64,000 nucleotides of DNA, taken from positions 1 through 64,000 of the forward strand of contig NZ_JANLGY010000004.1 of the NCBI RefSeq assembly GCF_024653915.1, given 5' to 3'. Source of the DNA: Sulfuricaulis sp. Lineage in GTDB: Bacteria; Pseudomonadota; Gammaproteobacteria; Acidiferrobacterales; Sulfurifustaceae. A program made the position numbers and the translations under genes. The notes under the pieces are model-generated. The model searched no databases. It was given only the letters and a program-made list of their open reading frames with translations, and was not told where the DNA came from. Positions 28,307-53,205 of the stretch are shown piece after piece (position 1 is the first letter of the stretch; every line of letters begins with the position of its first letter).

Positions 28307-28398
28307 GGTGCGTTCTGCATTTTCTACCACTTTACGGATATCCGTAACGGGATAGAACTCTACGCAGCGTGTCAGAGAATCCGGGGTATAATTCACGC

Positions 28399-29805
28399 AT
28401 GGATTTTTTCCCAATTTTCCTCAATCTCAGGAAACGTCCCTGTGTCGTCATCGGGGGTGGAGAGGTAGCGTCACGTAAAATATTCCTGTTACTGGATGCC
28501 GGGGCGCTGGTCACCGTATTTTCCCCGGCTCTCGGTGAGACAATTCGCAAATGGTCGGATGAGGGAAAGATCAAGCATGTTGCACAGGAATTCCACCCAG
28601 AGATGCTGGAGGGGTGCGTGCTCGTGATTGCGGCAACAGACGACGCCTCGGTCAACCGCCAGGTTTCCGAGGCCGCCAAGGCGCGCGGTATCCCGGTGAA
28701 TGTCGTGGATCAACCGGATCTGTGTACGTTCATCATGCCATCCATCATTGACCGATCGCCTATTACCATAGCGGTTTCCACCGGAGGACGTTCTCCTGTT
28801 TTGGCGCGCCTGATCCGCGCGCGCCTGGAATCGATGATCCCCGCCGGTTACGGCAGACTGGCCGGGCAGGTGACCACATTTCGTGAAAAGGTCAAACAGA
28901 CATTCAAACATCCGCCACGTCGCCGGCAGTTCTGGGAAGAAGTGTTACAGGGTCGCATCGCTGAGCTGGTTTATTCGGGGCAGGACAAGGCCGCGGAGAA
29001 AGCGCTGCAGGAGAGAATTGATTCTGCCGACGGGAATAAGCCCCGGATCGGCGAGGTATACCTGGTTGGTGGAGGCCCGGGAGACCCCGATTTGCTGACT
29101 TTTCGCGCGCTGCGGTTGATGCAGCAGGCGGATGTGGTTGTCTACGACCGGTTGGTGTCGCCAGCCGTGCTGGAGTTGGTGCGGCGCGATGCCGAACGCA
29201 TTTACGCCGGTAAGGAGCGCGATAATCATGCGCTTCCGCAGGAGGACATCAATCACCTGCTGGTGCGGCTGGCAAAAGAAGGCAAGTGCGTGGTGCGGCT
29301 CAAGGGTGGCGACCCCTTCATCTTTGGCCGCGGTGGTGAGGAAATTGACACGCTGGCAGCCGAAGGCATTCCGTTCCAGGTGGTGCCCGGTATCACTGCC
29401 GCCGCTGGATGTGCGGCTTACGCCGGTATTCCCCTCACTCACCGCGACTATGCCCAGTCAGTCGTGTTTGTGACCGGGCATTTGCAGGATGGCACCGTCA
29501 ATCTGAACTGGAAGGCGTTGGTGCAACCGGACCAGACCATCGTCTTTTATATGGGTCTGCATGGCGTTGAATCAATCTGCCGCGAGCTGATCAAACATGG
29601 CCTGCCGGCGAACATGCCGGCGGCACTGGTGCAGCAGGGCACCACACGCAATCAGCGGGTGCTGACCGGCGATCTGAGCAGTCTTCCGGAAATCGTGAAG
29701 CAGGCCAAGGTCAAACCACCGACGCTGATTATTGTCGGCGAGGTTATCAAGCTGCACGAGAAATTGAAGTGGTTCCATCCGACGCCTGCCAGCGGAGACC
29801 AGTGA
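28399..29805 (+). CDS. cysG: Sirohaem synthase (multifunctional)
   Basis: A 468-residue fusion enzyme that makes sirohaem from uroporphyrinogen III. The N-terminal precorrin-2 dehydrogenase/ferrochelatase half has [20 protein letters not shown]; the C-terminal methyltransferase half has [35 protein letters not shown] and [20 protein letters not shown]. The ATG at 28399 is preferred, giving the family N-terminus. Sirohaem is the prosthetic group of DsrAB, encoded about 15 kb away, and also of assimilatory sulfite and nitrite reductases. In Pseudomonas-like genomes cysG also follows serS and is adjacent to tusBCDE, the relatives of dsrEFHC. Confidence 0.96.
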
Positions 29806-43630: not shown

Positions 43631-44038
43631 CTAAAAGCTTAAAATCACGTCTTGCGATTGCATGAGGTCCGTCATTTCCTGCGTACCGATGACCTTCACG
43701 GGAACGATGAAGTCCTCCTCTTTCAGGCCGCGGGCATCCATGGACTCCTTTTCCACGTAAAGTTTCTCGATGTCATAACCTTCCAGTGCGCGAAAGGTTG
43801 GAGAGAAATTCTTGACGTCGATCGGTTTCGTGTGCTGCCCCTTGACGATCTGGTACACGCCGTCGTCCAGAAACGCCAGGCTCACGTCCTGATCGAATGC
43901 CGCCGCGATCAACACCACTTCCAGCGACTCCAGGGCGTAAATCGTGCCATAAGGCGCCTTGCGGTTGATGTACAGGAACTTTTTTACCTTGCCGCCCGCG
44001 TCCTCTTCCATATCAATTCCACCAGTTGCTTCAGTCAT
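43631..44038 (-). CDS. dsrF: DsrF, sulfurtransferase subunit
   Basis: A 135-residue TusC-like subunit of DsrEFH. The family start is FLYINRKAPYGTIYALESLE, followed by DQDVSLAFLDDGVYQIVKGQ and ALEGYDIEKLYVEKESMDARG. The N-terminal ~15 residues before this are charged and probably disordered; a shorter start at an internal Met is possible. DsrF has no active-site cysteine, as in other species. It lies between dsrE and dsrH. Confidence 0.93.
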   Translation of the reverse strand: MTEATGGIDMEEDAGGKVKKFLYINRKAPYGTIYALESLEVVLIAAAFDQDVSLAFLDDGVYQIVKGQHTKPIDVKNFSPTFRALEGYDIEKLYVEKESMDARGLKEEDFIVPVKVIGTQEMTDLMQSQDVILSF

Positions 44039-44062: not shown

Positions 44063-44425
44063 TTAATCGCCAAAGGTTACCAGCCGGTCCGACTGGATTC
44101 CCGTTTCGATCAACTGGCCCAGGCCGGAAATGCGAAAACCTTCCTGCAGGTTTTCGTCCTTGATGCCCCGGCGCAGTGCCGCCGCCACGCAGACTACCAG
44201 ATCGATGTGGTGATCCTTGGCCAGTTTCTGCCAGCGGTTGACGATATGACGGTCATCCGTCGGCGGCTCAGTCAACCGGCTCGAGTTGTAAACGCCGTCA
44301 TGATAGAAGAACACGCGATGAATCTTGTGCCCCTTTTCAATTGCGGCCTTGGTAAAAAGATAAGCCGTATCCGACGCCTGATGCGTATACGGCCCCTCGT
44401 TAATCAAAATACCCAACTTCATCAT
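44063..44425 (-). CDS. dsrE: DsrE, sulfurtransferase subunit with active-site cysteine
   Basis: A 120-residue TusD-like subunit. It starts LGILINEGPYTHQASDTAYL, has VFFYHDGVYNSSRLTEPP, and places the conserved cysteine in LVVCVAAALRRGIKDE at about residue 78, the residue that is persulfurated in Allochromatium DsrE. It is the first gene after dsrB, with a 94-base gap that could hold a transcript-processing site. It receives sulfur from upstream sulfurtransferases and passes it to DsrC. Confidence 0.95.
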   Translation of the reverse strand: MMKLGILINEGPYTHQASDTAYLFTKAAIEKGHKIHRVFFYHDGVYNSSRLTEPPTDDRHIVNRWQKLAKDHHIDLVVCVAAALRRGIKDENLQEGFRISGLGQLIETGIQSDRLVTFGD

Positions 44426-44519
44426 CGCTCCCCTTGATATTTATCAACACCCCGACGGTTTACGGGCCGACGCCGGGAAAACCCGGCGTCGATTGTGGCA
44501 ACAGCGTTTACGCTACGGG

Positions 44520-45599
44520 CTAAAAACGGATATGTGCCGACTGATTCAGCATGTGACGTGAACCACGCCAGTTGTCGATGTGGAACTTGGTAAACGGCAG
44601 TTCCGTCAGCTCAAAGAACCGCGGCCAGCCGATGCGTTCCACCCACTCGCCGACGCGTTCCCAATCTTTGGCGTCCTGCTTGTAGACCTTGAGAATTTTC
44701 TTGACGATGGTACCCACTTCCGGCCAGCGCGGCGGATTGTTCGGGATACCCGCGGCCACGAGTTTATGGAACATCGGCTTGGAGCGCGCATTGGAGTTTT
44801 TACCGCCGACCCAGATGGCGAGCTTGGAGTGTTCGGGGTCGTTGATCTGCATCGGCGGGCAGGGCGGAAAGCACGCGCCACAGCAGATGCATTTTTTTTC
44901 GTCGACTTCAAGCGAGGGCTTGCCGTTGACCATGGCCGGACGAATTGCCGCCACCGGGCAGCGCGCCACCACGGAAGGACGCTCGCACACGTTGGCCACG
45001 AGATCATGATTGATCTTCGGCGGCTTGGTGTGCTGCACGTTGATGGCGATGTCGCCCTGACCGCCGCAGTTGATCTGGCAGCAGGAGGTGGTGATGTGCA
45101 CGCGGTTCGGCATGTCTTCCTTGATGAACTCATCATGCAGGTCGTCCATCAGCGCCTTCACCACGCCCGAAGCGTCGGTGCCCGGGATGTCGCAATGCAG
45201 CCAGCCCTGGGTGTGGGAAATCATGGTCACCGAGTTGCCGGTGCCGCCGACTGGGTAGCCGGCCTCTTCAAACGCCTTGATCAGCGGTTCGACCTTGTCG
45301 GCGCTGGAGAGCGAGATTTCCATATTCGAACGGATGGTAAACCGCACATATCCTTCGCCGAGTTTGTCGATGATGTCGCACAGCAGGTTGATCTCGTAGG
45401 GACCAAGTTGACGCTGGGTGCCGACGCGCACCGTCCAGATTTCGTCGCCGCTCTTGGCGACGTGATGCAGAACGCCAGGACGGGGACGGTCGTGATACGC
45501 CCAGTTTCCGTAGTTTCTGATCATCAGGGGATGCATATATTGGAACGCATCCGGGCACCCGGTCTCAATCGGTGGGCGCATTTTTGGTGCTTCTGCCAT
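44520..45599 (-). CDS. dsrB: DsrB, reverse dissimilatory sulfite reductase beta subunit
   Basis: A 359-residue subunit carrying the catalytic sirohaem-[4Fe-4S] centre. Motif TSCCQINCGGQGDIAINV provides part of the cluster ligands, and CERPSVVARCPVAAIRP the rest. A ferredoxin domain follows (KCICCGACFPPCPPMQIND). It starts with PIETGCPDAFQYMHPLMIRN, typical of DsrB. It lies 57 bases after dsrA. In sulfur oxidisers the enzyme runs in reverse, turning DsrC-bound sulfane sulfur into sulfite. Confidence 0.97.
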   Translation of the reverse strand: MAEAPKMRPPIETGCPDAFQYMHPLMIRNYGNWAYHDRPRPGVLHHVAKSGDEIWTVRVGTQRQLGPYEINLLCDIIDKLGEGYVRFTIRSNMEISLSSADKVEPLIKAFEEAGYPVGGTGNSVTMISHTQGWLHCDIPGTDASGVVKALMDDLHDEFIKEDMPNRVHITTSCCQINCGGQGDIAINVQHTKPPKINHDLVANVCERPSVVARCPVAAIRPAMVNGKPSLEVDEKKCICCGACFPPCPPMQINDPEHSKLAIWVGGKNSNARSKPMFHKLVAAGIPNNPPRWPEVGTIVKKILKVYKQDAKDWERVGEWVERIGWPRFFELTELPFTKFHIDNWRGSRHMLNQSAHIRF

Positions 45600-45656: not shown

Positions 45657-46970
45657 TCAGCCTGCTGCCTGCTGCTTGCGCTTCTTCCACTTTTCGGCTT
45701 CCTGATCCCACTCGTCCAGGCGGACGTAGGAGCTGGTGCGTGGCTGGTTGATCATGTTCGGATCCACCTCGAGGCCGATGCCTTCCAGAAAGTTAACCAA
45801 GCCGATGCGCTCGATCATTTCGCCACAACGCTCGTGCTCCAGGCCGTTCTCGGCCCAGAAGTCGATGGTGCTGGCGGCAATCTCGCGAATCCGCTCGTAA
45901 TCCGCGTCGGTATCGAGCTTCATGAACGGAATAATGACGGTGCCAAAGGTGTCGCCGATCTTCAGCGTGCGCTTGCCGCCGATGAGCAGGGTGATGCCCT
46001 TGTCGTCGCCGGGCTTGAGTGCCTTGGTCATGACGTTAATGCAATGCATGCAGCGCACGCAGTTGCGGTTGTCCACGTCCAAGGTGTCGTCGTCGTTCAG
46101 TGACAACGCCTTGGTCGGGCAGCGGTTCACAACATTGTCGATGACATACTTGCGGCTCTTGCTCTTGATGAAGGTTTTGACTTCCTTCTGGTCGACCTTC
46201 ATGTCGTCGCGCCAGGTGCCGATGACAGCAAAGTCGGCGCGCTGGATCGAGTTCATGCAGTCGTTCGGACAGCCCGATACCTTGAACTTGAATTTGTAGG
46301 GCAGGGCCGGACGATGCATGTCGTCGATGAAGTTGTTCACCAGAACGCGATGGATTTTCTGCTCGTTGGCGTTCGACTGCTCGCAACGTGCCGCGCCGAC
46401 GCAGGACATGGCGGTGCGCACACAGGGGCCGGCGCCGCCGAGGTCCCAGCCGTATTCGTTGATCTCGTCGAAGAAGTGCTGCGTGTTCTCGCTGGTGGTA
46501 CCGATGAACATGATGTTGCCGGTCTGGCCGTGGAACGCGATCAGACCCGAGCCCCATTTATTCCAGGAGTCGGATAACTGACGCAGCATTTTGGTGGTGT
46601 AGTGATTGCCGGCAGGCGGCTGAACGCGGAGGGTGTGGAATTCTTTGGCTTCGGGGAACATGGGCTTGCCATCCTTCCCCATCAGCTCGGTGAAGCGGGG
46701 AATGATGCCACCGCCGTAACCGAATACGGATACTGTTCCGCCTTTCCAATAGCCTTTACGAGTGGTGTAGGAGTGTTCGAGCTGCCCCAGCAGGTCGACC
46801 ATCATGTTGTTGTTGTGCGCCAGACGTTTCAGTCCGGTCACGAAGCTGGGCCACGGTCCGCTCTCCAGCTGATCCAGCATCGGTGTCTTGTGGAACGGCT
46901 TGGTGGATTTCTTTTCCTTCGGGATGAAGGACGAATGTTTATCCGGATTCTTCGGTTGATTCTGGGCCAT
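45657..46970 (-). CDS. dsrA: DsrA, reverse dissimilatory sulfite reductase alpha subunit
   Basis: A 437-residue alpha subunit of the alpha2beta2 sulfite reductase. The sirohaem and cluster ligands are in RTAMSCVGAARCEQSNANEQ and FKVSGCPNDCMNSIQRADFA, and a ferredoxin domain has VVNRCPTKALSL and CVRCMHCINVM. It opens the minus-strand dsr operon and has a strong ribosome-binding site (AGGAGGT, about ten bases before the ATG). The charged first ~30 residues are longer than in some homologues. The following genes dsrB to dsrR are all on this strand with short gaps. Confidence 0.97.
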   Translation of the reverse strand: MAQNQPKNPDKHSSFIPKEKKSTKPFHKTPMLDQLESGPWPSFVTGLKRLAHNNNMMVDLLGQLEHSYTTRKGYWKGGTVSVFGYGGGIIPRFTELMGKDGKPMFPEAKEFHTLRVQPPAGNHYTTKMLRQLSDSWNKWGSGLIAFHGQTGNIMFIGTTSENTQHFFDEINEYGWDLGGAGPCVRTAMSCVGAARCEQSNANEQKIHRVLVNNFIDDMHRPALPYKFKFKVSGCPNDCMNSIQRADFAVIGTWRDDMKVDQKEVKTFIKSKSRKYVIDNVVNRCPTKALSLNDDDTLDVDNRNCVRCMHCINVMTKALKPGDDKGITLLIGGKRTLKIGDTFGTVIIPFMKLDTDADYERIREIAASTIDFWAENGLEHERCGEMIERIGLVNFLEGIGLEVDPNMINQPRTSSYVRLDEWDQEAEKWKKRKQQAAG

Positions 46971-47335
46971 TTAAACTACCTCCTGCGCGTCGGAAGGATA
47001 TAATACGGTCTTCAAGCGGTTATCTCGCTGAAAGGCTATCGTTTCTGTTAATTCAATTCTTGCGAAGGGTCAGTCTAAACGGGACCCCTAATAAAAAAAT
47101 CACTCGTTAGAGAGAGCCTTCCCGGGTTTGTCCCTCCCGAAAGGGATATAAGAAGCAGTGCGAAGGTCTCCACCGGAAAGCGTGTAATATACAACTAATT
47201 GATTTAAAGTACTAATGTCGCAGGAAAACCCCTCATAATATAATTTGATCAAGACGAATAGCAGCGGCGTTTTTGATTTAAATATTTGCCAGACGTTCCC
47301 ATTACTACCCTTAGTCACGCACAGGATTTCGCACA
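46971..47335. promoter_or_regulatory. Divergent control region between dsrA and the TauD-like gene
   Basis: The 365 bases hold no supportable gene. The dsrA ribosome-binding site is at the left end. AT-rich segments such as TAATATAATTTGATCAA near 47238-47252 could carry promoter or FNR-type half sites, and a hairpin with TCCCTCCCGAAAGGGA arms lies near 47130. The region must contain start sites for both the dsr operon and the opposite gene run, so it is the place where the two would be coordinated. No regulator site can be named with confidence. Confidence 0.55.
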
Positions 47336-48331
47336 TTGAATAATCCCGCCGATGTTGCTCGTGCCAGCGAAGCGCCGGAAAGCAGCCCCTTCAGCCTGCA
47401 ATACAGTGCGGCGTATCAGCGTTGGCGTGATGCCAAGCTGAAATCGTATCCCGCCACGGCGGATGACCTGGTAGTGGAAGTTGCTAACCCCCTGGTGCTG
47501 ACAAATGCCGAGGCCGGAGCGATGTTGAGTGCCTGCAGAAAAACCAACATGGTCATCTATGCAAGCCAGGCGAGCCGGGAAGACAAGGAAATTCCGCGCG
47601 CCGTAAGCGAGCGTTTCGGTTTGCACCGCTTCGACAGCAACATGCTCGCGGACGATGATGGCATTACTTCGCTGCAAGTGGCGGAGGAGAAGTCGCAGCG
47701 TGGCTATATCCCGTATTCCAGCAAGCGCCTCCTGTGGCACACGGACGGCTATTACAATAGTGCCGAGAGGCGCATTCGCGCGTTTGCATTGCATTGCGTT
47801 TCGCCGGCGGCGGAAGGCGGCGATAACAGTCTGCTGGACCACGAGGCTGCCTACATCTTGATGCGTGATGCCAATCCGGAATATATCCACGCGCTGATGG
47901 CACCGGACGCCATGACCATTCCCGCCAACACGGAAGCCGGCGCGGAAACGCGTCCGGCGGTGACCGGACCGGTGTTTTCCGTCGATCCTGCCGGCGGCAA
48001 TCTGCACATGCGCTATACCGCGCGCACGCGCTCCATTGAATGGAAGCAGGACGCGGCTACGCGGGAGGCGGTGCAGTTTCTGGAGAAGCTGCTGGCCGGC
48101 GAGTCGCCATTCATATTCCGACATCGAATGACAGCCGGGCAGGGCCTGATGTGCAACAACGTGCTGCATAACCGCACGGCCTTTGCGGATGATATCGACA
48201 GGGGAATCGCTAGACTGGTGTACCGGGCGCGCTATTATGACCGCATCCGCGGGACAAATTTGAACGAAGTTTTCACCCCCTTTCCATCTCTCCCCCGTAA
48301 AGGGGGAGAGGAAGTCGGTAGAGAACCTTGA
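47336..48331 (+). CDS. TauD/TfdA-family Fe(II)/2-oxoglutarate dioxygenase
   Basis: A 331-residue cytosolic oxygenase. The iron ligands are visible: HTD in RLLWHTDGYYN at about residue 135, and the distal His in MCNNVLHNRTAFADD at about 280, followed by RLVYRARYYDRI. It resembles the GbbH/TauD branch; the substrate is not evident, but a sulfonate or related sulfur compound is possible. The start is a TTG at 47336 after AGGATTT. The last ~15 residues (SLPRKGGEEVGREP) translate a palindromic repeat and probably extended the protein. It heads the run diverging from dsrA. Confidence 0.85.
   Translation: MNNPADVARASEAPESSPFSLQYSAAYQRWRDAKLKSYPATADDLVVEVANPLVLTNAEAGAMLSACRKTNMVIYASQASREDKEIPRAVSERFGLHRFDSNMLADDDGITSLQVAEEKSQRGYIPYSSKRLLWHTDGYYNSAERRIRAFALHCVSPAAEGGDNSLLDHEAAYILMRDANPEYIHALMAPDAMTIPANTEAGAETRPAVTGPVFSVDPAGGNLHMRYTARTRSIEWKQDAATREAVQFLEKLLAGESPFIFRHRMTAGQGLMCNNVLHNRTAFADDIDRGIARLVYRARYYDRIRGTNLNEVFTPFPSLPRKGGEEVGREP
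48288..48310. repeat. Palindromic repeat at the 3' end of the TauD-like gene
   Basis: CTCTCCCCC and GGGGGAGAG enclose GTAAA. It is translated as part of the last residues of the oxygenase and resembles the palindrome inside dsrN. Confidence 0.75.
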
Positions 48332-48344
48332 ATATGGTCTGGCC

Positions 48345-48542
48345 ATGTTGCACCTGAGCGAAATACTTTTGCAGCATCACGACATCGCGACGTTTGAACA
48401 ACTGTTGGAAGTGGTGCGTAGCCGCGCGCAATCGGAAATGTTTTTTCGCATCGATATCAAGCCGACTTATCCGGACACACCGGCAAATTGGGAAGATCAG
48501 CTCGAAGGCGCTTTCGTCGGCATCCATTCCATTACCAGATAA
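48345..48542 (+). CDS. Small unknown protein in the dsr-linked run
   Basis: A 65-residue acidic soluble protein with no family I recognise. It has a helix-like N-terminus (MLHLSEILLQHHDIATFEQL) and a C-terminal part with PTYPDTPANWEDQLEGAFVG. It lies 13 bases after the TauD-like gene and five bases before the next gene, all on the plus strand, which supports it being real. No cysteine is present. Confidence 0.6.
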   Translation: MLHLSEILLQHHDIATFEQLLEVVRSRAQSEMFFRIDIKPTYPDTPANWEDQLEGAFVGIHSITR

Positions 48543-48547
48543 TTTTT

Positions 48548-49255
48548 ATGAAATACCTTAAAGATGAAAGTTTCACGACAGACATGGACAGCGCAGAGGA
48601 TTCTCAGGAATCCTCTGTCTTGCTCGAAGCCCAGCTGGCCGAGTTCAGGCGCCAAATGCTGGAGCTGCCACCCAACTACGATCCACTCTCGCGCGCTGAC
48701 CTGCTGTTGCAAATCGGACGCACGCTGATACGGCTGGAAAAAAACCAGGACGCCTGGGACGCCGGGCGCGAGGCCTTCGATATTTTCACGGTGCGCGAAG
48801 CCTGGGAGGGCGCGGTGCAGGCCTGCGACATCCTGTTTCTGTCGGAGCAACCGGAATCGCTCGCGGCGCTCGGGCAGGGGATTTGGCTCACGGTTACCTT
48901 TCCCATGGACCCCGAGCTGTCGGTGGCGATGTTGCAACACGTGGTGGATGAAACTCCAGCGGACTCCGACGGCGCCGCGGTGGCGGCGACGGTGGCGCAT
49001 TACCTCGTGGACTTGCGCGCCGAGGGGCGCCAACGTGAAGACCTGATGTTTTACAGCAACCAGCTTCTGGCAACGGTAGCGCGGCGGCACAGCGACGCGC
49101 ACGACCAGGAGGCTTTTAGCCGCTGGTTCAAGAAACTCGAGCTCGACGATCCGGCGAAATTCCTGCCACGTCTGCGTAATGTCGTGGACGTGCTGGTGCA
49201 GGATGAGTGGTGGATCGACCGCGATGCCATACGCGAGAAGCTCCCGGTTAACTGA
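48548..49255 (+). CDS. Unknown helical protein in the dsr-linked run
   Basis: A 235-residue acidic soluble protein, probably all-helical. Segments such as LSRADLLLQIGRTLIRLEKN and AWDAGREAFDIFTVREAWEG look like degenerate TPR-type helical pairs, but no clear TPR consensus repeats. The single cysteine (AVQACDILFL) is not in a known motif. The start at 48548 is chosen for its spacing. It is 12 bases before the Cas6-like gene. I do not recognise the family. Confidence 0.7.
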   Translation: MKYLKDESFTTDMDSAEDSQESSVLLEAQLAEFRRQMLELPPNYDPLSRADLLLQIGRTLIRLEKNQDAWDAGREAFDIFTVREAWEGAVQACDILFLSEQPESLAALGQGIWLTVTFPMDPELSVAMLQHVVDETPADSDGAAVAATVAHYLVDLRAEGRQREDLMFYSNQLLATVARRHSDAHDQEAFSRWFKKLELDDPAKFLPRLRNVVDVLVQDEWWIDRDAIREKLPVN

Positions 49256-49267
49256 CGACTCGCGGAA

Positions 49268-49951
49268 ATGTTCTGGCAAGAAGCCAAAGATAATGAGCGT
49301 TATATCGTCCCGGACGATATCGTGGATCTGGTCTTCAGCATCCAGTGTCGCACCCTGCCGGTGGACCATTCCTACTCGTTGTCACAAGCCATTTCCAAAG
49401 CGCTCCCCTGGTTTGCGGCTGAAGCGCATGCCGGGCTTCATACCATCCACGGAGCGGAGTCGGGCAATGGCTGGATGCGCCCGGAAGATCCCAACGCCTT
49501 GCTGCATTTGTCACGCCGCACCAAGCTCATGCTGCGCCTGCCCAAGCAGCGCATCGAGGATGCCTGCAAATTGACCGGGCAGACGCTGGATATCGGCGGG
49601 AATTCAATGCAAGTGGGAAAGGCCGTGGTCAAACCGCTCAGCCCGATTACGACACTTTTCTCACGCTATATTGTTGCCAGCGAAAGCCTGGACGAAACGG
49701 CTTTCATGCGCGAGGCACAGTCACTGCTGGCAAATATCGGGGTCAATCCGATAAAAATGCTATGTGGCATCGAGCGGGTAATCAGCACGCCTGCCAGGAA
49801 AATACGTACCCGTAGCCTGATGCTCGCGGACTTGGCCGTGGAGGAATCGGTCAGGCTCCAGCAGCGCGGTTTGGGCCCGGAGCGAACGCTTGGCTGCGGG
49901 CTGTTTCTCCCGCACAAGGATATTCATGAAGTCCGGCCTGACTTGGATTAA
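49268..49951 (+). CDS. Cas6/Cmx6-family (RAMP) protein without a CRISPR array
   Basis: A 227-residue protein matching the Cas6 subtype known from MYXAN CRISPR systems. Characteristic parts are CRTLPVDHSYSLSQAISKAL at the start, LHTIHGAESGNGW with a histidine in the usual active-site region, KLMLRLPKQRIEDACKL, and the C-terminal EESVRLQQRGLGPERTLGCG glycine-rich loop followed by LFLPHKD. Cas6 proteins cut or bind CRISPR RNA hairpins. No other cas gene and no repeat array lies in this window. The gene sits 12 bases after an unknown and 73 bases before the DsrC paralogue, so a non-CRISPR role linked to sulfur oxidation is more likely. Confidence 0.78.
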   Translation: MFWQEAKDNERYIVPDDIVDLVFSIQCRTLPVDHSYSLSQAISKALPWFAAEAHAGLHTIHGAESGNGWMRPEDPNALLHLSRRTKLMLRLPKQRIEDACKLTGQTLDIGGNSMQVGKAVVKPLSPITTLFSRYIVASESLDETAFMREAQSLLANIGVNPIKMLCGIERVISTPARKIRTRSLMLADLAVEESVRLQQRGLGPERTLGCGLFLPHKDIHEVRPDLD

Positions 49952-50024: not shown

Positions 50025-50363
50025 ATGAGTTATGAGTTTAACGGCAAGACCATCGACACCGATGCCAACGGTTATCTGAAAAACGCCGAAGACTGGAACA
50101 AGGAACTGGCCGAGCATATTGCCACGTCGGAAGGCATTTCGCTGACACCAAAGCACTGGGATCTCATCGACTACCTGCGGGATATGTATCTCAGCCACGG
50201 TGGTGAGCAGCCCAACACGCGTCATATTGTGAAGGCGATGTCGGACAAGTGGGGCACCAATGCCAGTCAGAAGGATATTTACGATTTGTTCCCGAAGGAC
50301 CCGAGCAAGCAGGGCGGACGCATCGCCGGTTTGCCCGAGTCGCGCCGCAAGGGCGGATATTAA
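50025..50363 (+). CDS. DsrC/TusE-family protein lacking both redox cysteines
   Basis: A 112-residue DsrC-like protein. The core is well kept (TIDTDANGYLKNAEDWNKEL, LTPKHWDLIDYLRDMYLSHG, TNASQKDIYDLFPKDPSKQG). The C-terminal arm ends GGRIAGLPESRRKGGY, so both cysteines of DsrC, and the penultimate one of TusE, are replaced; it cannot carry sulfur the same way. This fits the cysteine-free RspA-type branch, thought to be regulatory. A good ribosome-binding site (GAGGGGAA) precedes the ATG at 50025. It lies between the Cas6-like gene and a rhodanese. Confidence 0.9.
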   Translation: MSYEFNGKTIDTDANGYLKNAEDWNKELAEHIATSEGISLTPKHWDLIDYLRDMYLSHGGEQPNTRHIVKAMSDKWGTNASQKDIYDLFPKDPSKQGGRIAGLPESRRKGGY

Positions 50364-50448: not shown

Positions 50449-51294
50449 GTGTTAACCACCCTTGTCGATACGGAAACGCTGTCACGGCACCTGGACGACC
50501 CGCGCTGGGTCGTCGTGGATTGCCGTTTTGCCCTGACAGACCCGGAAGCCGGACGGCGCGCTTATGCCGTCGGGCACATTCCCGGCGCGCGCTACGCACA
50601 CCTCAACGAGGATCTGTCGTCTCCCGTTACACGCAACAGCGGTCGGCATCCGCTTCCCTTTCCCAATACGTTAGCGGAAAAACTCAGCCGTTGGGGCATC
50701 GATAAAAACAGCCAGGTTGTTGTGTATGACGATTCCTTCGGCGCCATGGCGGCGCGGCTGTGGTGGCTGCTGCGTTGGCTTGGACATGAGACCGTGGCGG
50801 TGCTCGATGCCGGTTACCCGAAGTGGGTGCGCGAGAAGCGTCCGGTGACGACTGAATTGCCCGAGATCAAGGCAACACAATTCCATCCGACGATTAATAA
50901 CGGTTTGTGGGTTGACGCCGATCATGTATTGGAAATGACACGCGACATGAAAGGGCTTCTGATCGACGCACGCGCCGAGGAGCGTTTCCGTGGCGAGGTC
51001 GAACCACTGGACAAGGTGGCGGGCCATATTCCTGGCGCGAACAATATGCCTTATGAAGACAATCTCGACATCAGCAGCGAATTCATGTCTGATGAAGCCT
51101 TGCGCGAGCATTATCTGGCGCTGCTGGACAAGACGCCGCCGGACAAAGTCGTGCACATGTGCGGGTCGGGCGTGACCGCCTGCCACAGCATCCTCGCCAT
51201 GGAGCACGCCGGGCTTTCAGGCGCAAAATTGTATCCCGGCAGCTGGAGCGAGTGGATCGCCGACCCGAAGCGCCCGGTTGCCAAAGGCGAGTAA
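50449..51294 (+). CDS. Thiosulfate/3-mercaptopyruvate sulfurtransferase (rhodanese)
   Basis: A 281-residue tandem-rhodanese enzyme (SseA/TST family). The inactive first domain has HLDDPRWVVVDCRFALTDP and GHIPGARYAHLNEDLSSPV; the active second domain has the catalytic cysteine in VVHMCGSGVTACHSILAM at about residue 240, and ends with YPGSWSEWIADPKRPVAKGE. It should deliver sulfane sulfur in the cytosol, a possible donor for the Dsr pathway. The GTG start follows an inverted repeat with no clear ribosome-binding site, so the exact start is uncertain. Confidence 0.9.
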   Translation: MLTTLVDTETLSRHLDDPRWVVVDCRFALTDPEAGRRAYAVGHIPGARYAHLNEDLSSPVTRNSGRHPLPFPNTLAEKLSRWGIDKNSQVVVYDDSFGAMAARLWWLLRWLGHETVAVLDAGYPKWVREKRPVTTELPEIKATQFHPTINNGLWVDADHVLEMTRDMKGLLIDARAEERFRGEVEPLDKVAGHIPGANNMPYEDNLDISSEFMSDEALREHYLALLDKTPPDKVVHMCGSGVTACHSILAMEHAGLSGAKLYPGSWSEWIADPKRPVAKGE

Positions 51295-52588: not shown

Positions 52589-53205
52589 TCAGCGATCGAT
52601 GACCTCGCGCGATTTGTCATGCGCGGGATCCTTGGCAGGCAGGGTATCGCCGACCCATTCGCCTTTTTTCCAGCCTGGCACCGGGGTGGAGCATTCATTT
52701 TTTGGTACAAAGCGAGAGCGTTGCACCAGCTTCATCTTGTGGATGTAGCGAGGGCAGTTGGCAAAAACTTCGCGCGCCCGCACATGCACGATGAACTGTG
52801 CCTCGGGGTATTCCTTCATGAGCGGATCTTCCTGGCTAATCGTCGCCTCGCCGTTCAGGCGCATGCGTTTCTGATTCTCGAAATCTATAAACAGCATGCC
52901 CACCTGGCGGGTTCGGAGAATATTCCCCATGGTGAGATACATGCCATTGCCGTCGTAGTTGGGAAAGGCGAGGGATGCTCATCCACGACGCGCACTAAAC
53001 CGGGTGCACCGGCTTTGTAGGAGCAATTCGCATGACCGCGCTCATCCACGGTGGCAATGAAGAACATGTCCAGACACTCGATAAAGTCTTTATCGCTTGG
53101 CTGGAGACTGTCTTGCACGATGGCCTCGTCGAGGCGATCGGCTAGACGACGGGTATCGAATTCATCCTGAAGCTGACGACTGCCGTCGTGATAGATATCT
53201 GACAC
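52589..53205 (-). pseudogene. Pyridoxamine-5'-phosphate-oxidase-family protein, frameshifted
   Basis: Two overlapping minus-strand frames together give one FMN-binding split-barrel protein. The first (from 53205) runs DFIECLDMFFIATVDERGHA to VRVVDEHPSPF, then loses similarity; the second frame continues with FPNYDGNGMYLTMGNILRTR and on to the end at 52589. One base appears missing near 52970-52978. It is therefore either a recent pseudogene or a single-base sequencing error. It is convergent with the nitronate-monooxygenase-like gene and divergent from nothing close. Confidence 0.8.

Follow-up and report, generated by a model that had tools for sequence, protein, structure and literature searches.

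A Cas6-family protein outside CRISPR, tied to the oxidative dsr genes of Gammaproteobacteria and to a 65-aa partner ORF

Cas6 proteins normally cut and process CRISPR RNA, and parts of CRISPR-Cas systems are also used outside immunity, as in CAST Cascade. The closest described relatives of the protein treated here are the type I-MYXAN and I-B CRISPR Cas6 proteins (Cmx6, Cas6 of cyanobacterial plasmids and the CAST Cas6 8fcj_B). A second point of comparison is given by the DsrC and RspA-type proteins of the dsr pathway, since the downstream neighbour of cas6 is a DsrC-family protein. The literature covered, which included few subscription papers, yielded neither a stand-alone Cas6 with a metabolic role nor a connection between Cas6 and dsr. 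Like CAST Cascade, the cas6 gene in the window (the whole 64-kb stretch of DNA that was analysed; Table 1) is a CRISPR part employed outside adaptive immunity.

The first-pass annotation had read this ORF as a Cas6/Cmx6-type protein, which profile searches bore out. Pfam PF09559 matched with 218.6 bits (E 9.6e-65; curated cut-off 26.7 bits) over positions 1-190 of the 191 in the profile, NCBIfam TIGR02807 (cas6_cmx6) with 145.9 bits (cut-off 98.85), and several PADLOC Cas6 models matched as well. Both motifs named at that stage are present, LPVDHSYSLSQAISKALPW as residues 30-48 and QQRGLGPERTLGCGLFLPHK as the C-terminal glycine-rich loop. The nearest solved sequence was 8fcj_B (1.2e-15). The AlphaFold2 model, built from 29 homologues (pLDDT 86, pTM 0.82), has the two-ferredoxin (RAMP) fold of Cas6, and Foldseek ranked 8fcu_B, a type I-B CAST Cas6, first (E 9.6e-17, TM 0.78/0.83), followed by archaeal and Cascade Cas6. 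Loss of the RNA-binding groove in a predicted structure had been named as grounds for discarding the idea of a domesticated Cas6 acting on a cellular RNA; the Cas6 fold of the model is intact. By its full-length match above the curated cut-off, the protein belongs to the Cas6 family.

The dsr-type proteins were compared with Cmx6 from cyanobacterial plasmids and with 8fcj_B; six of the seven cyanobacterial-plasmid Cmx6 genes examined adjoin cas3. Both groups have the same fold, a PxDH motif with H34, R90, R133, Q198 and the glycines of the C-terminal loop (G201, G203, G209 and G211), at about 28% identity. Unlike the CRISPR-linked proteins, the dsr-type Cas6 carries an N-terminal [FY]W (W3), an insertion NGWMRPED and G167, has E143, K163, R182 and K217 fixed, and is found in a dsr neighbourhood without an array or cas genes. 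The candidate active-site histidines H34 and H58 are kept in 112/114 and 109/114 dsr-type sequences, and the CRISPR-linked relatives mostly have no H58. Five sequences have F or Q in place of H58, and three of these belong to a lineage whose cas6 has left dsr; therefore, the cleavage chemistry may not persist everywhere. In a tree with only eight canonical sequences, the dsr-type proteins did not group with CRISPR-linked Cmx6 and the two formed separate clades (support 0.999, branch 1.07); some of the cyanobacterial proteins stood in the canonical clade more than once, as three duplicate rows. The gene is under purifying selection (genus-level dN/dS 0.18 versus 0.065 for dsrA) and evolves faster than dsrA and rspA. 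On the Gloeobacter morelensis plasmid pGMOR1, a Cmx6-type Cas6 adjoins genes for a PAPS-reductase-family protein and a cupin, in a stretch (L152) with no cas3 or cas8 annotated.

The absence of an array from the 64 kb, noted earlier, was confirmed by a search for array-like direct repeats, which found none in the window. The search for a CRISPR-Cas locus elsewhere covered Cas1, the Cas3 core and RAMP proteins genome-wide. In the host genome (2.73 Mb, 99.78% complete), no Cas1, no RAMP protein and no Cas3 core over the curated cut-off were found; sub-threshold Cas3-core matches occur there and in all 14 control genomes. An even sample of 369 gammaproteobacterial genomes gave no significant association between Cas6 and Cas1 (p=0.13), Cas1 being carried by 50 of the 118 genomes with Cas6. 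Among 60 relatives of the host, 34 have Cas6, including all nine of the genus, and only 7 have Cas1. Because no CRISPR association was found by these searches (repeats in the window, Cas1, Cas3 core and RAMP proteins in the genome, Cas1 across the class), the window protein does not count functionally as a CRISPR Cas6/Cmx6.

The distribution follows dsrA instead. In the same sample, Cas6 was present in 118 genomes, DsrA in 115 and both in 109 (Fisher p 2.5e-74, a test which ignores shared ancestry, as do the other Fisher tests on these genomes), with one Cas6 copy per genome. The distance from cas6 to dsrA is at most about 5 kb in 80 of these 109 genomes; in 27 others, the two genes sit on separate contigs, which contig ends explain in part of the cases only. 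Six genomes have DsrA without Cas6. One of these (G178) is a contig cut, the fragment running through dsrA, tauD and the small ORF and stopping inside the next gene, and in two more (G165, G265) dsrA is also near a contig end. In family f4, dsrA is of another lineage and cas6 is mostly absent. One genome (G182) has the gene set at a contig end and no DsrA match. In four symbiont-sized genomes (1.0-1.1 Mb; L104-L107), dsrA still has tauD, the small ORF, cas6 and the DsrC relative next to it, and Cas1 had no match in them. The distances of Cas6 and DsrA correlate (Mantel r 0.59, 30 loci). Among the 219 genomes of a phylum sample, PF09559 matched the host genome only; this search, confined to Cas6, is silent on dsr carriers outside the class. 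By its distribution, the window Cas6 is a dsr gene. That it is independent of CRISPR and belongs with oxidative Dsr is well supported and, in our judgement, close to certain. Strong support for the proposal of a domesticated Cas6 comes from the co-occurrence and synteny data, from the tree, from the persistence of the gene in reduced genomes and from the purifying selection on it.

Table 1. Features of the dsr-linked cas6 locus and related sites (window positions unless a contig of the host genome is given)
Feature	Position	Strand	Basis or remark
dsrF	43631-44038	-	sequence and synteny
dsrE	44063-44425	-	sequence and synteny
10-bp hairpin in dsrB-dsrE gap of dsr transcript, stem GACGCCGGG/CCCGGCGTC	44468-44491	-	stem conserved in genus, loop variable
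dsrB	44520-45599	-	sequence and synteny
dsrA	45657-46970	-	TIGR02064, 587 bits
Dyad of TATCCC-N4-GGGATA type in dsrA-tauD space	47133-47148	.	widely conserved; two mismatches here
tauD, TauD/TfdA-type Fe(II)/2-oxoglutarate dioxygenase; heads the unit, which runs divergently from dsrA	47336-48331	+	PF02668, 2.5e-24
Small ORF, 65 aa, near-obligate Cas6 partner	48345-48542	+	constant spacing; co-occurrence with Cas6
TPR-like gene, 235 aa, helical, in part of the lineages	48548-49255	+	synteny; pairs with small ORF away from dsr
cas6, dsr-linked, 227 aa	49268-49951	+	PF09559, TIGR02807, PADLOC, AlphaFold2 model and Foldseek
rspA, DsrC relative without both C-terminal cysteines, ends …GGRIAGLPESRRKGGY	50025-50363	+	PF04358, 2.4e-33
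Rhodanese-type sulfurtransferase, in part of the lineages	50449-51294	+	PF00581; synteny
Dyad, one mismatch	28339-28354		15 nt before siroheme synthase ORF 28369-29805
Dyad, one mismatch	C11:58138		246 bp before second dsrA
Dyad, one mismatch	C11:89752		about 130 bp before another DsrC-family gene

The gene order recurs across lineages: dsrFEBA on one strand and, divergently, tauD, the small ORF, in some cases the TPR-like gene, cas6 and rspA. In the window, the first four genes of the unit are spaced by 5-13 nt. The HTD...H motif is conserved in the TauD homologues. The 235-aa protein had no Pfam or NCBIfam match, 'TPR-like' being a reading of its sequence. The cysteine-less DsrC relative, which we take to be RspA, is presumably of a type for which a regulatory role has been proposed. 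It was assigned by its DsrC-family match and the absence of both C-terminal cysteines; 119/122 homologues have no cysteine in the last 20 aa (3/122 have one), and the C-terminus is strongly conserved (LPxSxRKGGY). It differs from DsrC in lacking both functional cysteines and in travelling with tauD, the small ORF and cas6, outside the dsr operon. Allochromatium vinosum is described as having four more genes of the DsrC family whose function is open (PMC3368242). The host genome (G000) also has a second dsrAB of a different DsrA lineage (L130; C11:58384-60717), near which no dsrEF, tauD, cas6 or cysteine-less DsrC relative was detected. Further along the window, a pyridoxamine-phosphate-oxidase-like gene (52589-53205, minus strand) is split over two frames; its counterpart in L032 (9670-10287) is an intact ORF of 205 aa, therefore the window copy looks frameshifted.

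In lineages without the TPR-like gene, the gap between tauD and cas6 is nearly always about 200 nt. A small RNA was considered for this constant space and discarded, as the gap turned out to be filled by the 60-65 aa ORF. The product has the invariant pattern M-L-x-L-S...F..D..P...D.P..W....F and matched no Pfam or NCBIfam family; its structural model is confident and helical (pLDDT 87), and Foldseek found no PDB match for it. A profile of the small ORF was found in 106 of the 369 genomes, 105 of them with Cas6 (p 3e-76), the sole carrier without Cas6 being a cut contig; thus 105 of the 118 Cas6 genomes have it. Both genes are also kept where synteny is broken. Lineage f115 (1.4-1.6 Mb) retains the genes at separate sites: the dsr genes at one, the small ORF with the TPR-like gene beside a trp gene pair, and cas6 beside an RNase III-like gene. 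The small ORF and cas6 have relocated together in one genome (G359) and cas6 alone in another (G098). Nothing else points as strongly to a functional link as this joint persistence of genes that are no longer neighbours. At two loci (L117:4444-4833 region; L120:5114-5332), the usual small ORF is absent and a different ORF of about 70 aa without Pfam match lies directly upstream of cas6, possibly as an alternative partner. The set is class-wide and no local oddity; neither this extent nor the 65-aa ORF had been part of the first-pass annotation.

The explanation we favour, with a probability of roughly 0.6, is a Cas6 outside CRISPR which Gammaproteobacteria would have inherited as an accessory of their oxidative dissimilatory sulfur metabolism. 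It builds on the family and fold of the protein, its retained core residues, the lack of CRISPR markers in the searches above and the ties of cas6 to dsrA and the small ORF. It would act as a structure-specific RNA-binding protein in concert with the 65-aa partner and probably still as an endoribonuclease. RNA binding by the protein is likely and cleavage plausible. We infer that the target would be a transcript of the dsr/siroheme regulon, and Cas6 would thereby help to adjust how much of each dsr gene product is made relative to the others, the cysteine-less DsrC relative being a putative regulator. Because a CRISPR-free Cas6 stands beside dsr in nearly every gammaproteobacterial dsr carrier sampled, almost always with the 65-aa partner, the protein has probably been taken over for RNA control or processing in sulfur metabolism.

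The search for such a target gave no element common to all lineages. RNAalifold detected no structure conserved across lineages in the dsrA and tauD leaders or in the cas6-rspA, dsrA-dsrB and dsrB-dsrE stretches, and the earlier suggestion of a hairpin target in the cas6 operon or the dsr transcript gained no support from these alignments: no covarying element shared between lineages was found in the dsrA, tauD and cas6-rspA intergenic regions, and the sole strong local hairpin, between dsrB and dsrE, is lineage-restricted. Strong hairpins occupy this gap in the window and in L126, L117, L128, L129, L174, L175, L178, L194 and L198, unrelated in sequence between lineages. The window hairpin is an unproven candidate for a Cas6 substrate or a stability element; as a general Cas6 target it was rejected, being confined to the genus and absent in many lineages with a gap of about 20 nt. 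Transcript levels of dsrEFH and dsrC are reported to be higher than those of dsrA (Grimm et al. 2010, cited in PMC3397948), which processing at the dsrB-dsrE hairpin would fit; an extra dsrC promoter has also been reported (PMC3368242) and explains the differences without processing. The transcript levels and the genus hairpin were counted for processing of the dsr transcript. Counted against the favoured explanation were the want of an RNA target across lineages, the H58 losses, the extra dsrC promoter and the faster evolution of cas6.

The dyad between dsrA and tauD was likewise dismissed as a Cas6 RNA substrate in the dsrA leader, since its half-sites vary independently (TACCCC..GGGATA in L011, L018, L022, L026, L033 and L128). 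With up to one mismatch, it occurs in only three places in the host genome, each before a sulfur gene; this number is not above chance (5.6 expected), and the positions are striking but were noticed post hoc. It lies upstream of a -10-like motif, and three of the four symbiont-sized loci have no good copy while Cas6 is still present. Because of the independent half-sites, the -10-like motif, the recurrence at sulfur genes and the absence from symbiont-sized loci, it is read as a DNA operator, possibly that of a dsr/siroheme regulon.

The most serious alternative, though distinctly less probable than the favoured one, is that the Cas6 fold contributes a non-catalytic RNA- or protein-binding scaffold to a complex that also contains RspA, the TPR-like protein and the product of the small ORF and would act, for instance, as a Dsr maturation factor or redox regulator. 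The retention of the small ORF and other partners alongside Cas6, the clade-specific conserved surface residues with the insertion NGWMRP, the five sequences without H58 and the lack of an RNA target would suit a scaffold; the near-universal H34 and H58, the glycine-rich loop and the arginines common with CRISPR-linked Cas6 speak against it.

Improbable is an action of Cas6 on tRNA or another stable RNA, in a sulfur-coupled modification or repair unit in which the DsrC relative would serve as a TusE-like relay alongside the dioxygenase. The DsrC family includes TusE of tRNA thiolation (PMC3397948), and cas6 is flanked by genes for a dioxygenase and a DsrC relative; but this relative lacks both cysteines required for sulfur relay, the dioxygenase is closest, weakly, to small-molecule enzymes (trimethyllysine/butyrobetaine-type), and the distribution of Cas6 tracks dsrA.

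That Cas6 still matures crRNA in trans, for an array or type III system elsewhere, is very unlikely: the CRISPR name of the best family model and the Cas1 in 50 of 118 Cas6 genomes fit this, but the host has no Cas1, RAMP or Cas3 over the cut-off, Cas6 shows no Cas1 association in the class, and the gene is physically tied to dsrA and persists in reduced genomes in which Cas1 had no match. Toxin-antitoxin pairs usually have a patchy distribution and remain linked. Hardly any weight is given to a toxin-antitoxin or defence pair standing beside dsr by chance, which would be suggested by a small ORF that directly precedes a predicted RNase gene in nearly all carriers, since the pair is not patchy, mobile and tightly linked: there is a single copy per genome, distances correlate with DsrA, reduced genomes keep it, and the two genes are separable, yet both retained.

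The favoured reading thus concerns a Cas6 whose best model bears a CRISPR name but whose distribution is that of a sulfur-oxidation gene, in about a third of the sampled genomes (118/369), symbiont-sized ones included. On this reading, counts of CRISPR systems from Cas6 matches would be inflated in sulfur oxidisers. We see an even chance that the common ancestor of the Gammaproteobacteria with dsr already domesticated Cas6, as an RNase for regulation or processing with a new, near-obligate 65-aa partner; this would be the first Cas6 with a non-CRISPR cellular job. If true, this would show a CRISPR RNase recruited for housekeeping. Cas6 would then belong, under a wrong label, to the core of the oxidative Dsr pathway, and a globally important energy pathway would gain Cas6 and the 65-aa protein as components so far unrecognised.
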